A stretch of 64,000 nt of DNA. It comes from Zoogloea sp. Its GTDB lineage: Bacteria > Pseudomonadota > Gammaproteobacteria > Burkholderiales > Rhodocyclaceae. The notes under the pieces were generated by a model, which made no database searches, had not been told where the DNA came from, and worked only from the letters and a program-made list of their open reading frames with translations. The position numbers were made by a program, and so were the translations under genes. Positions 1,379 through 8,846 of the stretch are shown here, one piece after another (position 1 is the stretch's first letter; every line of letters starts with the position of its first letter). The stretch covers positions 83,213-147,212 of the forward strand of contig NZ_JAFLDT010000002.1 of the NCBI RefSeq assembly GCF_017302315.1, read 5' to 3'.

Positions 1379-1712
1379 CGCGACGTCGACAAATTTATCT
1401 CAATGGCATGCATTCTATTTCATTTAATGCATTATGAGTTTTCGTGCCGGCGTCTTGGGTACGTTCACCCCCGCTATGCACGAGAACGGTGCAGACCAAA
1501 CGCCCCATGCCCGGAACGGGTGCCGAAGCCATCTTGTGTAAGTCCTGTGTAAGATTGATCAACTTTAATGCTTGTCGGACCCAGGGCAGGTGCACCAATA
1601 AGCGCCACCACAAGGCGCAAGCATCCAAGAGGCATCAGCGGCCGGACTCCCCGCCAGCAAGGTTTCAGAGCTAACAACGTTGCACACTCATAACACGAGG
1701 AGAGGTGAAAAA
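1379..1712. other. Divergent intergenic region between mshL-like gene and acs
   Basis: This 334-bp stretch holds no convincing gene. The part next to the secretin gene (about 1387-1440) is AT-rich and probably carries its promoter. The middle holds the tandem GTAAG motif at 1535-1553, followed by an AT-rich TTTAAT (1564-1569) that could be a -10 element for acs. Short ORFs here overlap one another on both strands, lack good ribosome binding sites and resemble no family I know. Confidence 0.6.
1535..1553 (+). promoter_or_regulatory. Tandem TGTGTAAG operator upstream of acs
   Basis: TGTGTAAG occurs at 1535-1542 and again at 1546-1553, so the GTAAG cores start exactly 11 bp apart, one helical turn. 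A possible -10 (TTTAAT, 1564-1569) begins 15 bp after the start of the second core. The same motif and spacing occur upstream of yjcH-actP and, inverted, before the response regulator gene at 6540. Direct repeats with 10-11 bp spacing are typical binding sites of OmpR-family response regulators. The repeat is observed; the protein that binds it is inferred. Confidence 0.65.
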
Positions 1713-3671
1713 ATGACGAGCGAAACCACCCAGAAGTTCTACTATCCGTCTGAAGAGGTGGTAAAGAACGCGGCGGTGTCGGGCATGGATGCGTACAAAG
1801 CCCTGTGTGCCGAAGCCGAAAAGGATTACGAAGCTTTCTGGGGCACCCGTGCCAAGGAGCTGCTGGACTGGCAAACCCCCTTTACCCAGGTCCTGGATGA
1901 GAGCAATGCGCCGTTCTTCAAGTGGTTTGCCGATGGCAAGCTGAACGTTTCCTACAACTGTCTTGACCGTCAGGTCAAGAATGGTCTGGGCGACAAAGTT
2001 GCGCTGATTTTTGAAGGCGACAAGGGTGATGTAACCAAGGTCACCTACTCCGATCTCCTCAGCCGCGTCAGCAAGTTCGCCAACGCGCTGAAGGGTCAGG
2101 GCGTCAAGAAGGGTGATCGCGTCGTCATCTATCTGCCGATGTCCATTGAAGGTGTGGTTGCCATGCAGGCTTGCGCCCGTATCGGCGCAACCCACTCCAT
2201 CGTGTTCGGCGGCTTCTCCGCCCAGTCCCTGGCCGACCGCATCAACGATGCCGGCGCCGTTCTGCTGATCACCTCCGACGGTCAGAATCGTGGCGGCAAG
2301 GCGCTGCCCCTGAAGTCCATCGCCGACGAAGCGCTGGCCAGCGGCTGCCCGACCATCAAGAGCGTCATCGTGGTCAAGCGCACCGGCGCCGAAACCGCCA
2401 TGGTCGCCGGTCGTGACCTCTGGGCCGACGATCTGGTTGCCCAGCAGTCCGACGTCTGCGAGCCGGAATGGGTTGAGGCCGAGCATCCCCTGTTCCTTCT
2501 TTACACCTCCGGCTCCACGGGCAAGCCGAAGGGCGTTCAGCACTCCACTGGCGGCTATCTGCTGCACGCCGTGCTGACCATGAAGTACACCTTCGACATC
2601 AAGCCGAATGATGTCTTCTGGTGTACCGCCGATATCGGCTGGGTCACGGGCCACACCTATATCACCTACGGCCCTCTGGCCTGCGGTGCAACCGAAGTGG
2701 TGTTCGAAGGCGTGCCCACCTACCCGGACGCCGGCCGTTTCTGGAAGATGATCCAGGATCACAAGGTCTCCGTGTTCTACACCGCCCCGACCGCGATCCG
2801 TTCGCTGATCAAGTCGGCGGACAACACCCCGGCCGTGCATCCCAAGAACTACGACATGTCCAGCCTGCGCATCCTGGGTTCGGTCGGCGAGCCGATCAAC
2901 CCCGCAGCCTGGGAGTGGTACTACGAGAACGTTGGCGGCAGCCGCTGCCCGATCGTGGATACCTTCTGGCAGACCGAGACCGGCGGCCACATGATCACCC
3001 CGCTGCCTGGCGCCACCCCGCTGATCCCCGGTTCCTGCACGCTGCCCTTCCCGGGCATCCAGGCCGCCGTGGTTGACGAAACCGGTACCGAAGTTCCCTG
3101 GGGTCAGGGCGGCATCCTGGTTGTCAAGCGTCCGTGGCCGTCCATGATCCGCACCATCTGGGGCGATCCGGACCGTTTCGTGAAGTCCTACTACCCGGCT
3201 GACTTCCAGGGCAAGCTGTACCTGGCGGGCGACGGTGCCATCCGCGACAAGGACACCGGCTACTTCACCATCACCGGCCGTATCGATGATGTGCTGAACG
3301 TTTCCGGTCACCGTATGGGTACGATGGAAATCGAATCCGCCCTGGTCGCCCACGAGAAGGTTGCCGAGGCTGCTGTGGTTGGCCGTCCGGATGATCTGAC
3401 CGGTGAAGCAATCGTGGCCTTCGTGGTGCTCAAGGGTGCGCGTCCGACCGGCGATGCTGCCGTTGCGATGATCAAGGAGCTGCAGAACTGGGTTGGTCAG
3501 GAAATCGGGCCGATCGCCAAGCCGAAAGACATCCGTTTCGGTGAGAACCTGCCGAAGACCCGCTCCGGCAAGATCATGCGCCGTCTGCTCCGCCAGCTGG
3601 CCAAGGGCGAGGAAATCACCCAGGACACCTCGACGCTGGAGAACCCGGCGATCCTGGAACAGCTCAAGTAA
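1713..3671 (+). CDS. acs: Acetyl-CoA synthetase
   Basis: AMP-forming acetate:CoA ligase, 652 aa, the normal length for bacterial Acs. It turns acetate, ATP and CoA into acetyl-CoA through acetyl-AMP in the cytoplasm. The ATP-binding loop [11 protein letters not shown] lies at about residues 264-274. The C-terminal lysine that protein acetyltransferases usually modify is K620 in RSGKIMRR. The ATG at 1713 is chosen over an in-frame ATG 11 codons upstream because GAGGAGAGG sits just before it. The gene stands alone ahead of the yjcH-actP acetate-uptake operon, ends before a strong terminator, and carries the tandem GTAAG operator in its promoter region, so co-regulation with acetate uptake is likely. 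Confidence 0.97.
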
Positions 3672-3790
3672 GAAATCATTCCCCGGCCCAATGGCTGGGG
3701 CGATTTGCAGAAAACAATAAACACGGCAAATCGGAAAAAGAAAAAACAGGGGAGGAACCCGGTGCAGTCAGGCCGGGGGTAGAGGGGGGG

Positions 3791-3819
3791 AAAAAGGCGC
3801 GAATCTCGCGCCTTTTTTT
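3791..3819 (+). terminator. Rho-independent terminator after acs
   Basis: The stem GGCGCGA / TCGCGCC (3796-3802 and 3806-3812) has a three-base loop ATC and is followed by seven T residues. It lies about 120 bp after the acs stop. The A-run before the stem could let it work on the other strand too, but no gene faces it there. Confidence 0.9.
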
Positions 3820-3939
3820 CGTCCACTTTCCGGGCCGAGTTTCCGGTAATTGAGGTCGGCGACGCCTTCTTTTTTCTATGTGCTTGATCCTGATGGAGTT
3901 TCCTGTCTGCGATCAAGGCGGCCCGTTTCTTCCGTTAGC

Positions 3940-3956
3940 GTAAGTTGGATGTAAGT
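3940..3956 (+). promoter_or_regulatory. Tandem GTAAGT operator upstream of yjcH-actP
   Basis: GTAAGT at 3940-3945 and again at 3951-3956 gives the same 11-bp spacing as the element upstream of acs. A weaker third half-site, GTAACT, starts at 3965 and overlaps a possible -10 (TAACTT, 3966-3971). That -10 starts 15 bp after the second core, as in acs. This would place a bound activator over or just upstream of the -35 region. Binding by the neighbouring OmpR-type regulator is inferred. Confidence 0.65.
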
Positions 3957-4033
3957 GTCAGCCTGTAACTTGCACATACCCCTAAAGGAGTCCCTTTGGC
4001 TCCTGGCAGGTTTATTCGAAGAGGAGGAGAAAT

Positions 4034-4342
4034 ATGAAAGACGACCTCGGCGACCGCATCCGGGCAAATCCAAAATACCAGGAGCTGGTCTCGAAACGCA
4101 ATTCCTATGGCTGGATCATGACAGCGCTGATGATGATCGTTTACTACGGTTACATCCTGCTGGTGGCCTTCAACAAGGAGTTCCTGGCGCAGAAGACAGG
4201 CGCGGGTGTGATGTCGATTGGTATTCCCATTGGCGTTGGTGTGATTCTGTTCACCATCATCATCACCGGTATCTACATTCGTCGTGCCAATACCGAGTTT
4301 GACGATCTGAAGGCTCAGGTCATCAAGGAGGCCACCAAGTGA
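4034..4342 (+). CDS. yjcH: DUF485 membrane protein (YjcH family)
   Basis: A 102-aa inner-membrane protein with two hydrophobic segments at about residues 28-46 and 64-83 and charged ends. This is the DUF485/YjcH layout. Members are nearly always encoded just before the acetate symporter ActP and are thought to assist it, but the molecular role is not established. A strong Shine-Dalgarno (GAGGAG) precedes the ATG. The stop codon overlaps the actP start by one base (TGATG), so the two are translationally coupled. Confidence 0.93.
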
Positions 4343-6111
4343 TGCGCAATTCCAAACTCTTGCTCGGCCTTCTGGCCATGCTGGCCTCCGGCGCCGTCCT
4401 TGCTGCTGGCGCCGACCTTGGCCAGGCTGAGAAGCAGGCCACCAACTGGACGGCCATCATCATGTTCGGCATCTTCGTTGCCGGCACGATGTTCATCACC
4501 AAGTGGGCGGCCTCGAAGACCAAATCGGCTGCCGACTTCTACACCGCCGGCGGTGGCATCACCGGCTTCCAGAACGGCCTGGCGATCGCCGGTGACTACA
4601 TGTCCGCCGCGTCCTTCCTGGGTATTTCCGCTGCGGTGATGGCCAACGGTTACGACGGCCTGATCTTCGCGATCGGCTTCCTCGTGGGCTGGCCGGTCAT
4701 CACCTTCCTGATGGCAGAGCGTCTGCGCAACCTCGGCAAGTTCACCTTTGCTGACGTGGCCGGTTACCGCTTCCAGCAGACCCCGATCCGTGCCTTCGCC
4801 GCTTCCGGCACGCTGGTCGTGGTGGCCTTCTACCTCATCGCCCAGATGGTCGGTGCCGGTCAGCTGATCAAGCTGCTCTTCGGCCTCGAGTACTGGATGG
4901 CGGTGGTGATCGTTGGCGCGCTGATGATGGTTTATGTGCTCTTCGGTGGCATGACCGCCACCACCTGGGTGCAGATCATCAAGGCCGTGCTGCTGCTGGC
5001 CGGTGCTTCCTTCATGGCCTTCATGGTGCTCATCAAGTTCGGTTTCAGTCCGGAAGCGATGTTCGCCAAGGCTGTCGAGATCAAGACCGCCCTCGCTGCC
5101 AAGGATGCCAAGCTGATCGCTGATGCGGCGACCGCCGCTGCCGCGTCCGGCAAGGATGTGGCCGAAGTGACCGCTGCGATGGCTGCCAAGAAGGGCGACT
5201 CCATCATGGGCCCGGGCTCCTTCGTGAAGGATCCGATCTCCGCCATCTCCTTCGGTATGGCGCTGATGTTCGGTACCGCTGGTCTGCCCCACATCCTGAT
5301 GCGCTTCTTCACCGTGCCGGATGCCAAGGAAGCACGCAAGTCCGTGGGCTGGGCGACCGTCTGGATCGGCTACTTCTACATCCTGACCTTCGTGATCGGC
5401 TTTGGTGCCATCTGCTTCGTGCTGACCGACCCCACCTTCCTGGATGCCAAGGGCGCCCTGAAGGGCGGCGGCAACATGGCAGCTATCCACCTCGCCAATG
5501 CAGTCGGCGGCAATATCTTCCTCGGCTTCATCTCCGCGGTCGCATTTGCCACCATCCTGGCCGTGGTTGCCGGTCTGACCCTGTCCGGTGCTTCCGCCGT
5601 GTCCCATGACTTGTACGCCACGGTGTTCAAGAATGGCAATGCGGATTCCGCTTCCGAGCTGCGTGTTTCGCGCATCACCACCATCGTTCTCGGCGTGATC
5701 GCCGTGGTCCTGGGTATCGCCTTCGAAAAGCAGAACATCGCCTTCATGGTGTCCCTGGCCTTCGCCATCGCCGCATCCGCCAACTTCCCGGTGCTCTTCA
5801 TGAGCGTGCTGTGGAAGGACTGCACCACCAAGGGTGCCGTTATCGGTGGCTTCCTCGGCCTGCTGAGCGCCGTGGTGATGACCGTGCTGTCGGACTCCGT
5901 GTGGGTCGCCACCCTGGGCAACCCGAAGGGTTCCGCTCCGTTCCCCTATACCTCGCCGGCCCTGTTCTCCATGACCATCGGCTTCGTGGGTATCTGGATC
6001 TTCTCGCTGCTTGACCGCAGCCCGAATGCCCAGCAGGAACGTGCCGACTTCGCCGCCCAGCTGATCCGGTCCGAAACCGGTATCGGTGCCTCCGGTGCTT
6101 CGGGTCACTAA
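4342..6111 (+). CDS. actP: Cation/acetate symporter ActP (SSS family)
   Basis: Sodium:solute symporter of 589 aa with many membrane segments, the conserved N-terminal [10 protein letters not shown] motif and the [11 protein letters not shown] motif of the acetate/monocarboxylate branch. It probably imports acetate with a cation. A cleavable-looking N-terminus ([14 protein letters not shown]) is present, as in other ActP proteins. An alanine- and lysine-rich soluble insert around residues 240-290 separates core helices, as in the VC_2705-like subfamily. The ATG at 4342 is preferred to the GTG at 4339 because of its spacing from AAGGAGG (4325-4331). A strong terminator follows. Confidence 0.95.
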
Positions 6112-6155
6112 GTAGTTGTATTGCCGGCGGGCTTCGGCCCTGCCGGAAGTATTGG

Positions 6156-6192
6156 AAAACCCCGGCTTGCCGCAAGGCAGCCGGGGTTTTTT
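6156..6192 (+). terminator. Rho-independent terminator after actP
   Basis: A long stem, AAAACCCCGGCT with an inner TGCC-GCAA-GGCA tip and returning AGCCGGGGTTTT, ends in a run of T. It is among the strongest terminators in the window and closes the yjcH-actP operon. Confidence 0.93.
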
Positions 6193-6499
6193 CATGCATG
6201 TGCGGCTTTGCACCAGGCTCGTTACCGCCCGCGAAGACGCGCGATGGGCATGCGTGTGCGATGCTCGCACGGCCCTGTGCTAGACTCGGACGGATTGTTT
6301 TGGGAGCGTGCTGCCAGGGCCGAAAACCCCCGGATAGGGGTTGATCCGTGCAGCGGTCGATCGGGAATGGGCGAAAAAAGACGGCGGGGGAAGGTTCGTC
6401 GGGCGAACCAACCCCCGAGGCGTTGCCACTGCTCGCGCGGCGACTTTGCCCCCAAGACCGAGTAAAAGGAGAACAGCGGGTCGACTGTGCAATATTCCG

Positions 6500-6515
6500 C
6501 TTACTTCAAACTTAC
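6500..6515 (-). promoter_or_regulatory. Inverted copy of the tandem GTAAG operator before the response regulator
   Basis: Read on the minus strand, GTAAG occurs at 6515-6511 and 6504-6500. The cores are again 11 bp apart, with the same TGTAAGT flank on the first one. The element ends only 24 bp before the regulator ATG at 6540. An AT-rich AATATT (6491-6496) lies next to it, so bound regulator would probably repress or tune its own gene. Autoregulation is inferred from position; the repeat itself is direct sequence. Confidence 0.6.
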
Positions 6516-6539
6516 ACTTCTGGTTTCCAAGAAAACGCC

Positions 6540-7214
6540 ATGCGGATCCTGTTGGCCGAAGACGACCTGATTATTGCCGACGGCTTGTGCCGTGCGCTCA
6601 AAAAAGCCGGCTATGCCGTCGATCATGTCCCCAACGGGGCGGATGCCGACCTTGCTCTCATGAGTCAGACCTTTGATCTGCTGATTCTCGATCTTGGTCT
6701 CCCGCGCTTGTCCGGCATTGAAGTGTTGCGCCGCCTGCGCTCCCGAAAATGTGCGTTGCCGGTGCTGATCCTTACCGCCCAGGATGGCATCGAAGACCGT
6801 GTTCGGGGGTTGGACGCCGGCGCCGATGACTACCTGACCAAGCCCTTTGCCCTTCCCGAGCTTGAGGCGCGAGTCCGTGCCCTGACCCGGCGCGGTACCG
6901 GTCAGGCCCGTTGCATCGAGTACGCCCGCCTCGCCTACGACCAGGCCGATCGGGTGGTCAAGATCGACGGTCAGGTGGTGGAGCTCTCTGCCCGGGAGGT
7001 CGGCTTGCTCGAAGTGCTATTGCTGCGTGCCGGGAGGTTGGTGAGCAAGGAGCAACTTGTCGACCACCTGTGCGGCTGGGGCGAGGAGGTGTCCAACAAT
7101 GCCATCGAGGTGTATGTCCACCGCCTGCGCAAGAAGCTTGAGCAGAGTGGCGTGCAGATCGTGACCGTGAGAGGGCTGGGGTACTGCCTGGAAAAGCCCG
7201 ATGTGGTCGCCTAG
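6540..7214 (+). CDS. OmpR-family response regulator (TctD/QseB-like)
   Basis: A 224-aa two-component response regulator. The receiver domain (about 1-115) has the acidic pair at 8-9, the phospho-acceptor Asp51 (LLILDLGLP) and the conserved Lys101 (DYLTKPFA). A winged-helix OmpR/PhoB DNA-binding domain follows (about 125-220, ending in VRGLGYCLEK). The ATG at 6540 is chosen because it opens the receiver domain exactly. The gene overlaps the sensor kinase gene by 14 bp. It follows actP, and an inverted copy of the operator shared with acs and yjcH-actP sits before it. I infer control of acetate uptake and activation; homologues named TctD respond to tricarboxylates. Confidence 0.9.
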   Translation: MRILLAEDDLIIADGLCRALKKAGYAVDHVPNGADADLALMSQTFDLLILDLGLPRLSGIEVLRRLRSRKCALPVLILTAQDGIEDRVRGLDAGADDYLTKPFALPELEARVRALTRRGTGQARCIEYARLAYDQADRVVKIDGQVVELSAREVGLLEVLLLRAGRLVSKEQLVDHLCGWGEEVSNNAIEVYVHRLRKKLEQSGVQIVTVRGLGYCLEKPDVVA

Positions 7215-8697
7215 ATGGCGCAAGGTGGCGGACGATGAGGCCACCGACGGGAAGGCCTTCAATTCGCTCTTCGGGGAAATCCTCGACTGGATGTTGGCCC
7301 CCCTGCTGTTCCTGTGGCCCATCTCCATCATCGTCACGCACAACGTTGCCAACAGCATCGCCAACCAGCCCTATGACCAGGCGTTGGCCGTCAACGTCCG
7401 GGCCATCGCCCGGCTGGTGAAGCTTGAGAACGGTCAGGCCCGCGTGAACTTCCCCGCGCCGGCCCGCCTGATCCTGAGGGCCGACGAGGACGATACCGTC
7501 TACTACCAGGTACTCGGATTCAAGGGCGAGCTGCTTGCCGGCGACAAGGACATCCCGCCCATCGCAGCGCCGGAGAACGTCGTACCCGATCTGGTCATGT
7601 TCCGCGATGAATCCATCGCCGGCGAAGAGGTCCGCGTGGCCTACCAGTTTGTGCAGCCCATCGACAGCACACCCTCGCGCCTGGTGCTTCTCCAGGTGGC
7701 GGAGACACGCAACAAGCGCAGTACCCTCGCCTCGCGGGTGGTGACGGGCGTGCTGCTGCCCCAGTTTGCCATCATTCCCATTGCCGTGATCCTGGTGTGG
7801 TTGGGCCTCTCCCGCGGCATTGCCCCCCTCAATCAGCTCCAGCGCCTGATCCGCCGGCGGCGCCCTTCGGATCTGTCGCCGATCTCTGTGTCGGGCGTGC
7901 CGGAAGAAGTGCGGCCCCTGATCATCGCCTTCAATGAAATGATGGCCCGTCTTGAGGAGAACCTTCAGGCCCAGCAGCGGTTCATCGCCGATGCGGCCCA
8001 CCAGATGCGCACCCCGCTGACGGGGCTGCGCATGCAGACCGATCTTGCCATGATGGAGACCGACCCGGTCCAGGTCCATCGCTCGTTGATCCATATCTCC
8101 CAGAGTGCCGAACGCGCCGGGCACCTGATCAACCAGCTCCTTTCCCTGGCTCGGGCCGAGGCCAGCTACGAAAAGATCTACGCGGTGGAGCGGGTGGACC
8201 TCGAAACGCTCCTGCGCGCCATGCTCAGCGACTTCGTCCCCCGGGCCCGTCAGAAGAACATCGACTTCGGCCTGGAAACCACCGGGGAGCCGCTGCTCAT
8301 CGATGGCAATCCGGTGCTCCTGGGCGAGCTGGTCAAGAACCTGATCGACAACGCCATCAAGTACACCCCCGAAGGCGGCTGCGTCACCGTGCGCACCATC
8401 GCCACCGAGCGCGCCATCCTGGAGGTGGAGGATACGGGGATCGGGGTGCCCGACGTGGACCGGGAGCGCGTCTTCGAGCGTTTCTACCGGGTGCTCGGCA
8501 GCACTGAAAGCGGCTCCGGCCTGGGTCTTCCCATCGTTCGCGAGATTGCCGAACTCCATCGCGCCAAGGTCAGCCTCATCCCCAATCCCAGCGGCAAGGG
8601 CACCATCGCCCAGGTCGTCTTCCCCCGTAGCCGAGCGGGTGAAGAGGCGCCCACCCCCGAAACCCGAATCCCTGCGGATCAGTTTCCTCCCGCCTGA
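7201..8697 (+). CDS. TctE-like sensor histidine kinase
   Basis: A 498-aa membrane sensor kinase, partner of the upstream regulator. A first membrane segment (about residues 30-50) and a periplasmic region of roughly 130 residues match the 2CSK_N sensor domain of TctE/QseC-like kinases. A second membrane segment (about 180-205) and a HAMP-like linker follow. The phospho-accepting histidine is H267 in HQMRTPLTGL. The N box (LIDNAIKYTPEGG), G1 (EDTGIGVP) and G2 (GSGLGLPIV) are intact, so the kinase should be active. The ligand is unknown; acetate or a related carboxylate is inferred from context. Confidence 0.9.
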   Translation: MWSPRWRKVADDEATDGKAFNSLFGEILDWMLAPLLFLWPISIIVTHNVANSIANQPYDQALAVNVRAIARLVKLENGQARVNFPAPARLILRADEDDTVYYQVLGFKGELLAGDKDIPPIAAPENVVPDLVMFRDESIAGEEVRVAYQFVQPIDSTPSRLVLLQVAETRNKRSTLASRVVTGVLLPQFAIIPIAVILVWLGLSRGIAPLNQLQRLIRRRRPSDLSPISVSGVPEEVRPLIIAFNEMMARLEENLQAQQRFIADAAHQMRTPLTGLRMQTDLAMMETDPVQVHRSLIHISQSAERAGHLINQLLSLARAEASYEKIYAVERVDLETLLRAMLSDFVPRARQKNIDFGLETTGEPLLIDGNPVLLGELVKNLIDNAIKYTPEGGCVTVRTIATERAILEVEDTGIGVPDVDRERVFERFYRVLGSTESGSGLGLPIVREIAELHRAKVSLIPNPSGKGTIAQVVFPRSRAGEEAPTPETRIPADQFPPA

Positions 8698-8770: not shown

Positions 8771-8846
8771 GGCCAGTTAGCTCAGTTGGTAGAGCAGCGG
8801 ATTGAAAATCCGCGTGTCCGTGGTTCGATTCCGCGACTGGCCACCA
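8771..8846 (+). tRNA. tRNA-Phe (anticodon GAA)
   Basis: A 76-nt tRNA with acceptor stem GGCCAGT / ACTGGCC, a standard D arm, a T arm with GGTTCGATTCC, and an encoded CCA end. The anticodon loop TTGAAAA puts GAA at 8804-8806, which reads phenylalanine codons. It has its own promoter and a terminator 15 bp downstream, so it is a single-gene unit. Confidence 0.98.

Follow-up and report, generated by a model that had tools for sequence, protein, structure and literature searches.

How are the genes for acetate activation and uptake controlled in Zoogloea sp., and what part is played by the two-component system encoded beside them? The question is raised by a stretch of 64,000 nucleotides (nt) of this organism (contig NZ_JAFLDT010000002.1, positions 83,213 to 147,212), the whole of which is called the window below. 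Tandem GTAAG cores separated by six nucleotides precede acs and yjcH-actP in this DNA and occur once more, inverted, in front of a response regulator gene. The reading to which we give a probability of roughly 0.8 is that the gene pair at 6540-8697 encodes an OmpR/PhoB-type system that would activate an acetate regulon, and that the third site is the promoter of a divergent small RNA predicted to block translation. It draws on comparison of genome sequences, which bears on the conservation of the sites, their geometry, the gene set behind them, their co-occurrence with the regulator, and the structure of the RNA and its link to the operator. The elements concerned are the following.

1538-1553, plus strand: operator GTAAGTCCTGTGTAAG before acs, kept in the congeners L035, L037, L038 and L041
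1564-1569, plus strand: -10-like hexamer TTTAAT of the acs promoter
3940-3955, plus strand: operator GTAAGTTGGATGTAAG before yjcH-actP
3966-3971, plus strand: -10-like hexamer TAACTT of the yjcH-actP promoter
6500-6515, minus strand: operator GTAAGTTTGAAGTAAG of the predicted small RNA promoter (the inverted site)
6484-6489, minus strand: -10-like hexamer CACAGT, 10 nt past the second core; a YAnnnT hexamer stands here in 97 of 100 homologous sites
6374-6477, minus strand: small RNA gene of about 104 nt, with its 5' end predicted at 6477, the tail GCUGUUCUCCUUUUA, a three-way junction and a U-rich 3' end

All three GTAAG-N6-GTAAG pairs lie where an initial annotation, made from the sequence of the window, had placed them. 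Its estimate that far fewer than one such pair would arise by chance in 64 kb also holds, with an expectation from base composition of about 0.04 per window (about 2.8 per genome) and no match across 100 dinucleotide shuffles of the window. The search of the complete genome that it proposed (4,516,272 bases in 165 contigs) returned four matches, three of them the window sites, against three for the reversed pattern; the bare motif is thus at background level elsewhere, and it is the clustering that matters. On reading, a -10-like hexamer is missing from the expected position at the fourth site, GTAAGAATCTCGTAAG (L001, contig C20). The same annotation put a -10 element at both plus-strand sites, 15 bp on from where the second core begins. 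This placement fits actP (TAACTT); for acs, the hexamer found there is TTTAAT, which does not conform to YAnnnT.

The spacing between repeat and hexamer was examined in 61 stretches, namely the first 20 kb of the window and 60 others surrounding regulator relatives, the last of which are 47-57% identical and probably not orthologues. They contain 67 perfect pairs. A TAnnnT hexamer lies exactly 10 nt past the second core in 34 of these, and at any other offset in 0-2 sites each, so that GTAAG-N6-GTAAG behaves in these sequences like an activator site whose geometry is fixed. The third site, taken on the strand it occupies, keeps to this spacing too (CACAGT at minus 6489-6484) and consequently points away from the response regulator. 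The stretch entered from it starts with GCTGTTCTCCTTTT, recurs almost unchanged, and is divergent from the regulator in 27 of the 61 stretches.

In an alignment of this stretch (A2) the 5' end is invariant, the middle varies in length and the 3' end is rich in U. Single-sequence folds place a free 5' tail before a short helix that closes a three-way junction in 24 of 27 copies, and the closing helix is C-G in most copies and U-A in others. The tail, GCUGUUCUCC, is near-invariant: among 100 aligned loci chosen for spread, with RNA lengths of 84-144 nt, each of the first 13 positions is identical in 96-100, although the tail belongs to the model used for the search, and it is unpaired in most single folds. 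In the structural alignment (A4), 85.8% of cells are paired versus 73.3% in shuffles (97.2, 84.2, 99.6 and 66.7% for the individual helices). Changes on both sides occur at 15 of 20 pairs, 311 cells being changed on both sides versus 120 in shuffles, and the covariation score is 0.421 versus at most 0.148 for slid partners. At the gathering score Rfam recognized the transfer RNA (tRNA) alone in the window and left the small RNA unmatched; at E up to 5, the sole match overlapping the small RNA was bxd_2, with 11.2 bits against a required 80. The absence of a match above threshold and the varying lengths were the basis for rejecting a protein-coding or riboswitch reading of 6374-6477.

A covariance model detected the small RNA in 27 of 80 relatives, all of the same family, and in none of 32 genomes from other families of the order. 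Across the family it is present in 146 of 297 genomes and 41 of 68 genera. All 146 have the regulator, which amounts to 146 of the 223 genomes with the regulator and 0 of the 74 without it. Searches over 40 genomes use stricter filters, so that absences of the RNA are evidence of lower quality. They are also overstated, as seen in G087, where an operator and the complement of the RNA 5' end lie beside the regulator (contig C267:6334-6383) without being called by the model. Among named relatives, the model matched one of 31 searched within the best 80 loci (mostly other regulators), a metagenome-assembled genome of Azovibrio restrictus whose operator has, on reading, one mismatch. The RNA model began at the RNA 5' end and did not include the operator, which therefore constitutes independent evidence. 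An operator lies upstream of all 100 aligned loci (96 perfect, four with one mismatch), at 38 nt from the RNA in 49 loci, 39 nt in 49 and 32 nt in two, and the hexamer at the right place fits YAnnnT in 97 and TAnnnT in 76.

Could the RNA be real and yet act in cis, as an antisense RNA or attenuator of the regulator messenger RNA (mRNA)? Its position would suit such a role: by tblastn the regulator gene is divergent from it at 46-193 nt in 96 of the 100 loci, and by coordinates at 63 nt in the window. Three loci (L132, L234 and L252) have the regulator outside the fetched stretch. One of them (L234, genome G136) carries the RNA about 5 kb from the regulator with the operator kept but for one mismatch; another (L252) belongs to G181, which carries the RNA twice, and lies about 18 kb away from the other copy (L251), again with the operator. 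A further genome, G104, has two RNAs (L254 and L255) and two regulators. A 5' tail under strong constraint combined with a middle helix of variable length is a trait of trans-acting RNAs, and in the present RNA the tail is the most constrained part while the middle helix varies in length. With copies standing apart from the regulator in G136 and G181, a cis-acting role appears unlikely.

The gene set behind the sites was defined with the regulon pattern GTAAG-N6-GTAAG-N10-YAnnnT in 20 chosen genomes of the family (19 genera). Thirty-eight matches were found, against two for the reversed pattern. Sixteen precede the small RNA, 11 yjcH-actP, five the citrate synthase gene gltA and one acs; the others precede two transporters of the major facilitator superfamily (MFS; one assigned by Pfam in G029, one by eye in G136), another sodium:solute symporter (G041), a DUF294/CBS protein (G136) and DctP (G027). 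Twenty further stretches, four left from that scan and 16 picked among the matches listed, gave seven gltA, six yjcH-actP, four acs, one MFS transporter and two without a recognized gene; they are a non-random set, and four overlap the 38. Among the matches listed, at least one operator with its hexamer was found in 213 of the 297 family genomes, with 21 matches for the reversed pattern by row count. The regulator itself (E up to 1e-82) was found in 223 of the 297 genomes and 57 of 68 genera. Again among the matches listed, the operator is present in 198 of the 223 genomes with the regulator and in 15 of the 74 without it (Fisher p = 4e-28, shared ancestry ignored). The central proposal of the initial annotation, an acetate regulon marked by this motif and associated with the neighbouring OmpR-type regulator, is well supported by these comparisons.

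It may be argued that the operators serve another regulator and that the nearness of the pair is a coincidence. Sites in regulator-less genomes would agree with this, as would the eight orthologues outside the family (L069, L070 and the named L139-L144; 67-71% identity) whose genes lack a perfect repeat ahead of them. It is, however, difficult to reconcile with the co-occurrence just described or with the site standing beside the regulator at 96 of 100 small RNA loci. Moreover, the repeat fronts regulator orthologues of other families too (L078 and L082), where it points away from the gene. We consider this possibility improbable, slightly more so than a cis-acting RNA. At L078 an ActP-like symporter is encoded divergently, together with a small membrane protein, which suggests that a transporter may once have stood at the place of the present small RNA.

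The third rival, the least probable of all, is the self-regulation that the initial annotation had assigned to the inverted site, the conserved stretch then being the regulator's 5' leader or plain promoter DNA: the site does end 24 bp before the regulator ATG and lies between regulator and RNA in 96 of 100 stretches, but the -10-like hexamer is on its far side and on the other strand, it is the minus strand on which tail, helices and U-run can be understood, and the operator-RNA unit is separated from the regulator by about 5 kb in G136, while G181 has a second unit about 18 kb from its first. Autoregulation as the main role of the site was rejected because of this orientation and of the RNA copies away from the regulator; the site's -10 spacing fits a promoter leading into the conserved small RNA, and the site may still have some effect on the regulator's own expression.

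The protein-coding genes of the locus are as follows.

1713-3671, plus strand: acs, acetate--CoA ligase of 652 amino acids (TIGR02188, 981 bits, cut-off 724.95)
4034-4342, plus strand: yjcH, DUF485 protein, assigned by a family model
4342-6111, plus strand: actP, cation/acetate symporter (NF006903, 942.8 bits, cut-off 750)
6540-7214, plus strand: response regulator of OmpR/PhoB type; nearest named model TctD, below cut-off
7201-8697, plus strand: sensor histidine kinase with a 2CSK_N input domain, HisKA and HATPase_c

The assignment of the response regulator to the OmpR/PhoB type follows from its receiver (PF00072) and Trans_reg_C (PF00486) domains, both above cut-off. Its best NCBIfam model is TctD, of the TctD/TctE system; it misses that equivalog cut-off (NF012023, 235.5 bits versus 337), and the gene set here is one of acetate. 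The nearest solved structures are those of PmrA (8jo2 and 4s04; E about 1e-48). The HAMP match of the kinase is below cut-off, and the domain search returned no SSF domain (PF00474) in it. A tRNA gene (8771-8843; anticodon GAA by eye) lies directly 3' of the kinase gene. Between the yjcH promoter and the gene, the leader (3978-4012) contains a short inverted repeat (AGGAGTCCCTTTGGCTCCT), and similar ones are seen in the leaders of several congeners. Some family members carry arrays of more than two GTAAG/GTCAG cores with an 11-bp step, for example upstream of the symporter gene at L053:5262-5300 and L057:11777-11837.

CrbS/CrbR (MxtR/ErdR) is another two-component system that governs acs and actP. 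As described in PMC5715377, CrbR is of LuxR type, its ACTU motif is an inverted repeat, and CrbS has an SLC5 domain; here the regulator is of OmpR type, the operator is a direct repeat and the kinase has 2CSK_N. As the initial annotation had supposed, the pair would be separate from CrbSR, and control of the CrbSR type was rejected because of the domains (Trans_reg_C rather than LuxR-type, no PF00474 in the kinase). The DUF294/CBS gene under a site in G136 recalls the "putative signal-transduction protein" PFLU5625 that the same source describes as CrbR-controlled, a resemblance offered as a guess. A parallel in site architecture is PmrA (BasR), whose box is given as CTTAAT-N5-CCTAAG with an 11-bp period (PMC3973317). 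The present site, read on the other strand, is CTTAC-N6-CTTAC and shares this period; the half-site letters differ, and no polymyxin genes are among the present sites. In the PmrA complex the -35 element is described at the first half-site (PMC4660055), and the spacing of the present operator fits activation of this kind.

On the preferred reading, acetate or another organic acid would be the signal, and the regulator, once phosphorylated, probably occupies GTAAG-N6-GTAAG as a head-to-tail dimer, immediately 5' of the -10 element. The two cores begin 26 and 15 nt ahead of this element, at the place of a -35 element. The bound protein would activate rather than repress, recruiting RNA polymerase to the promoters of acs and yjcH-actP and, among relatives, to that of the citrate synthase gene. 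The output would be acetate uptake, its activation and its entry into the tricarboxylic acid cycle. The third site would drive no protein gene; it would promote transcription of the small RNA divergent from the regulator, and the single-stranded 5' tail of this RNA would pair with purine-rich ribosome-binding sites, so that with the system switched on, other mRNAs would most likely be blocked from being translated.

The tail is complementary to AAGGAGAACAGC, overlapping a Shine-Dalgarno sequence, and on account of this anti-Shine-Dalgarno character the small RNA probably represses mRNAs by a translation block. A search of 16 genomes for AAGGAGAACA before ATG gave 76 matches versus four for the reversed site, a weak control, since stretches rich in purines are frequent ahead of ATG in any case. 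Several catabolic genes, recognized by eye only, were among the 70 downstream frames inspected. A stricter test with a rearranged site gave 355 versus 91 matches (transcribed rows); a few seed-site matches are the RNA's own complementary strand and were kept in the counts.

Several observations weigh against the reading proposed. The seed-site enrichment is not significant (241:55 in genomes with the small RNA versus 114:36 in the rest, p = 0.21), and no target is claimed for that reason. Fifteen regulator-less genomes carry the operator (18 matches), several of these genomes being incomplete; conversely, the small RNA is unmatched in 77 of the 223 regulator-bearing genomes of the family. The Fisher tests ignore shared ancestry. 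The acs hexamer TTTAAT of the window is poor and outside the YAnnnT pattern, and a simple promoter and terminator scan of 6100-6600 detected neither. As to the RNA, the closing helix is missing from three of 27 folds (L054, L056 and L067), just 66.7% of cells are paired in the terminal hairpin's outer stem, and the covariation figures are favoured by A4 having been fitted to the structure. The stability of the window RNA is not unusual: folded together with its flank (122 nt), it has a z of -1.49 and was equalled by 18 of 200 shuffles.

Small RNAs driven by two-component systems are already known; the combination of genes, site and RNA described here looks like a new form of this kind, and neither an OmpR-type acetate regulator nor this small RNA in the family was found among the open-access matches listed. 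Among RNAs of Betaproteobacteria, NmsR of Neisseria, for which a translation block was shown (PMC5362039), and NgncR_162-163 are metabolic RNAs with UC-rich anti-Shine-Dalgarno stretches, and their targets include gltA (PMC5362039, PMC9973317). By the description in these sources, they have three stem-loops, UC-rich sequence both within the loops and between them, a link to RelA and a location between dsbB and lrp; the present RNA has a 5' tail and an operator-driven promoter. S17/bdhR1 (RF02278), described in PMC11722255 from Betaproteobacteria including a Rhodocyclaceae species, also has a conserved C/U-rich 5' end; its sequence differs from that of the present RNA. The Zoogloea genome contains two RF02278 copies of its own (L095 and L096, contigs C76 and C85); with none at the small RNA locus, identity with S17/bdhR1 was rejected. 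Compared by description, AccSR of Azoarcus sp. CIB is alike in that a two-component system governs carbon preference and that acetate counts as one of the repressing substrates; it differs in that AccR is described as a repressor of aromatic catabolism (PMC6456745).

It is conceivable, though we hold it rather doubtful, that the RNA is the repressing arm of a preference for acetate: with acetate plentiful, its uptake and use would be switched on while translation of competing catabolism would be switched off through the RNA. If this were true, the competing routes shut off would be aromatic, fatty-acid and amino-acid breakdown, and one two-component system with one RNA would do the job of Crc/CrcZ-type systems elsewhere. 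The searches made gave no match above threshold in Rfam 15 for the RNA family. Rhodocyclaceae include major acetate consumers of wastewater, and the present analysis names for this family a concrete candidate acetate switch, with its sites, its gene set and a predicted small RNA output.

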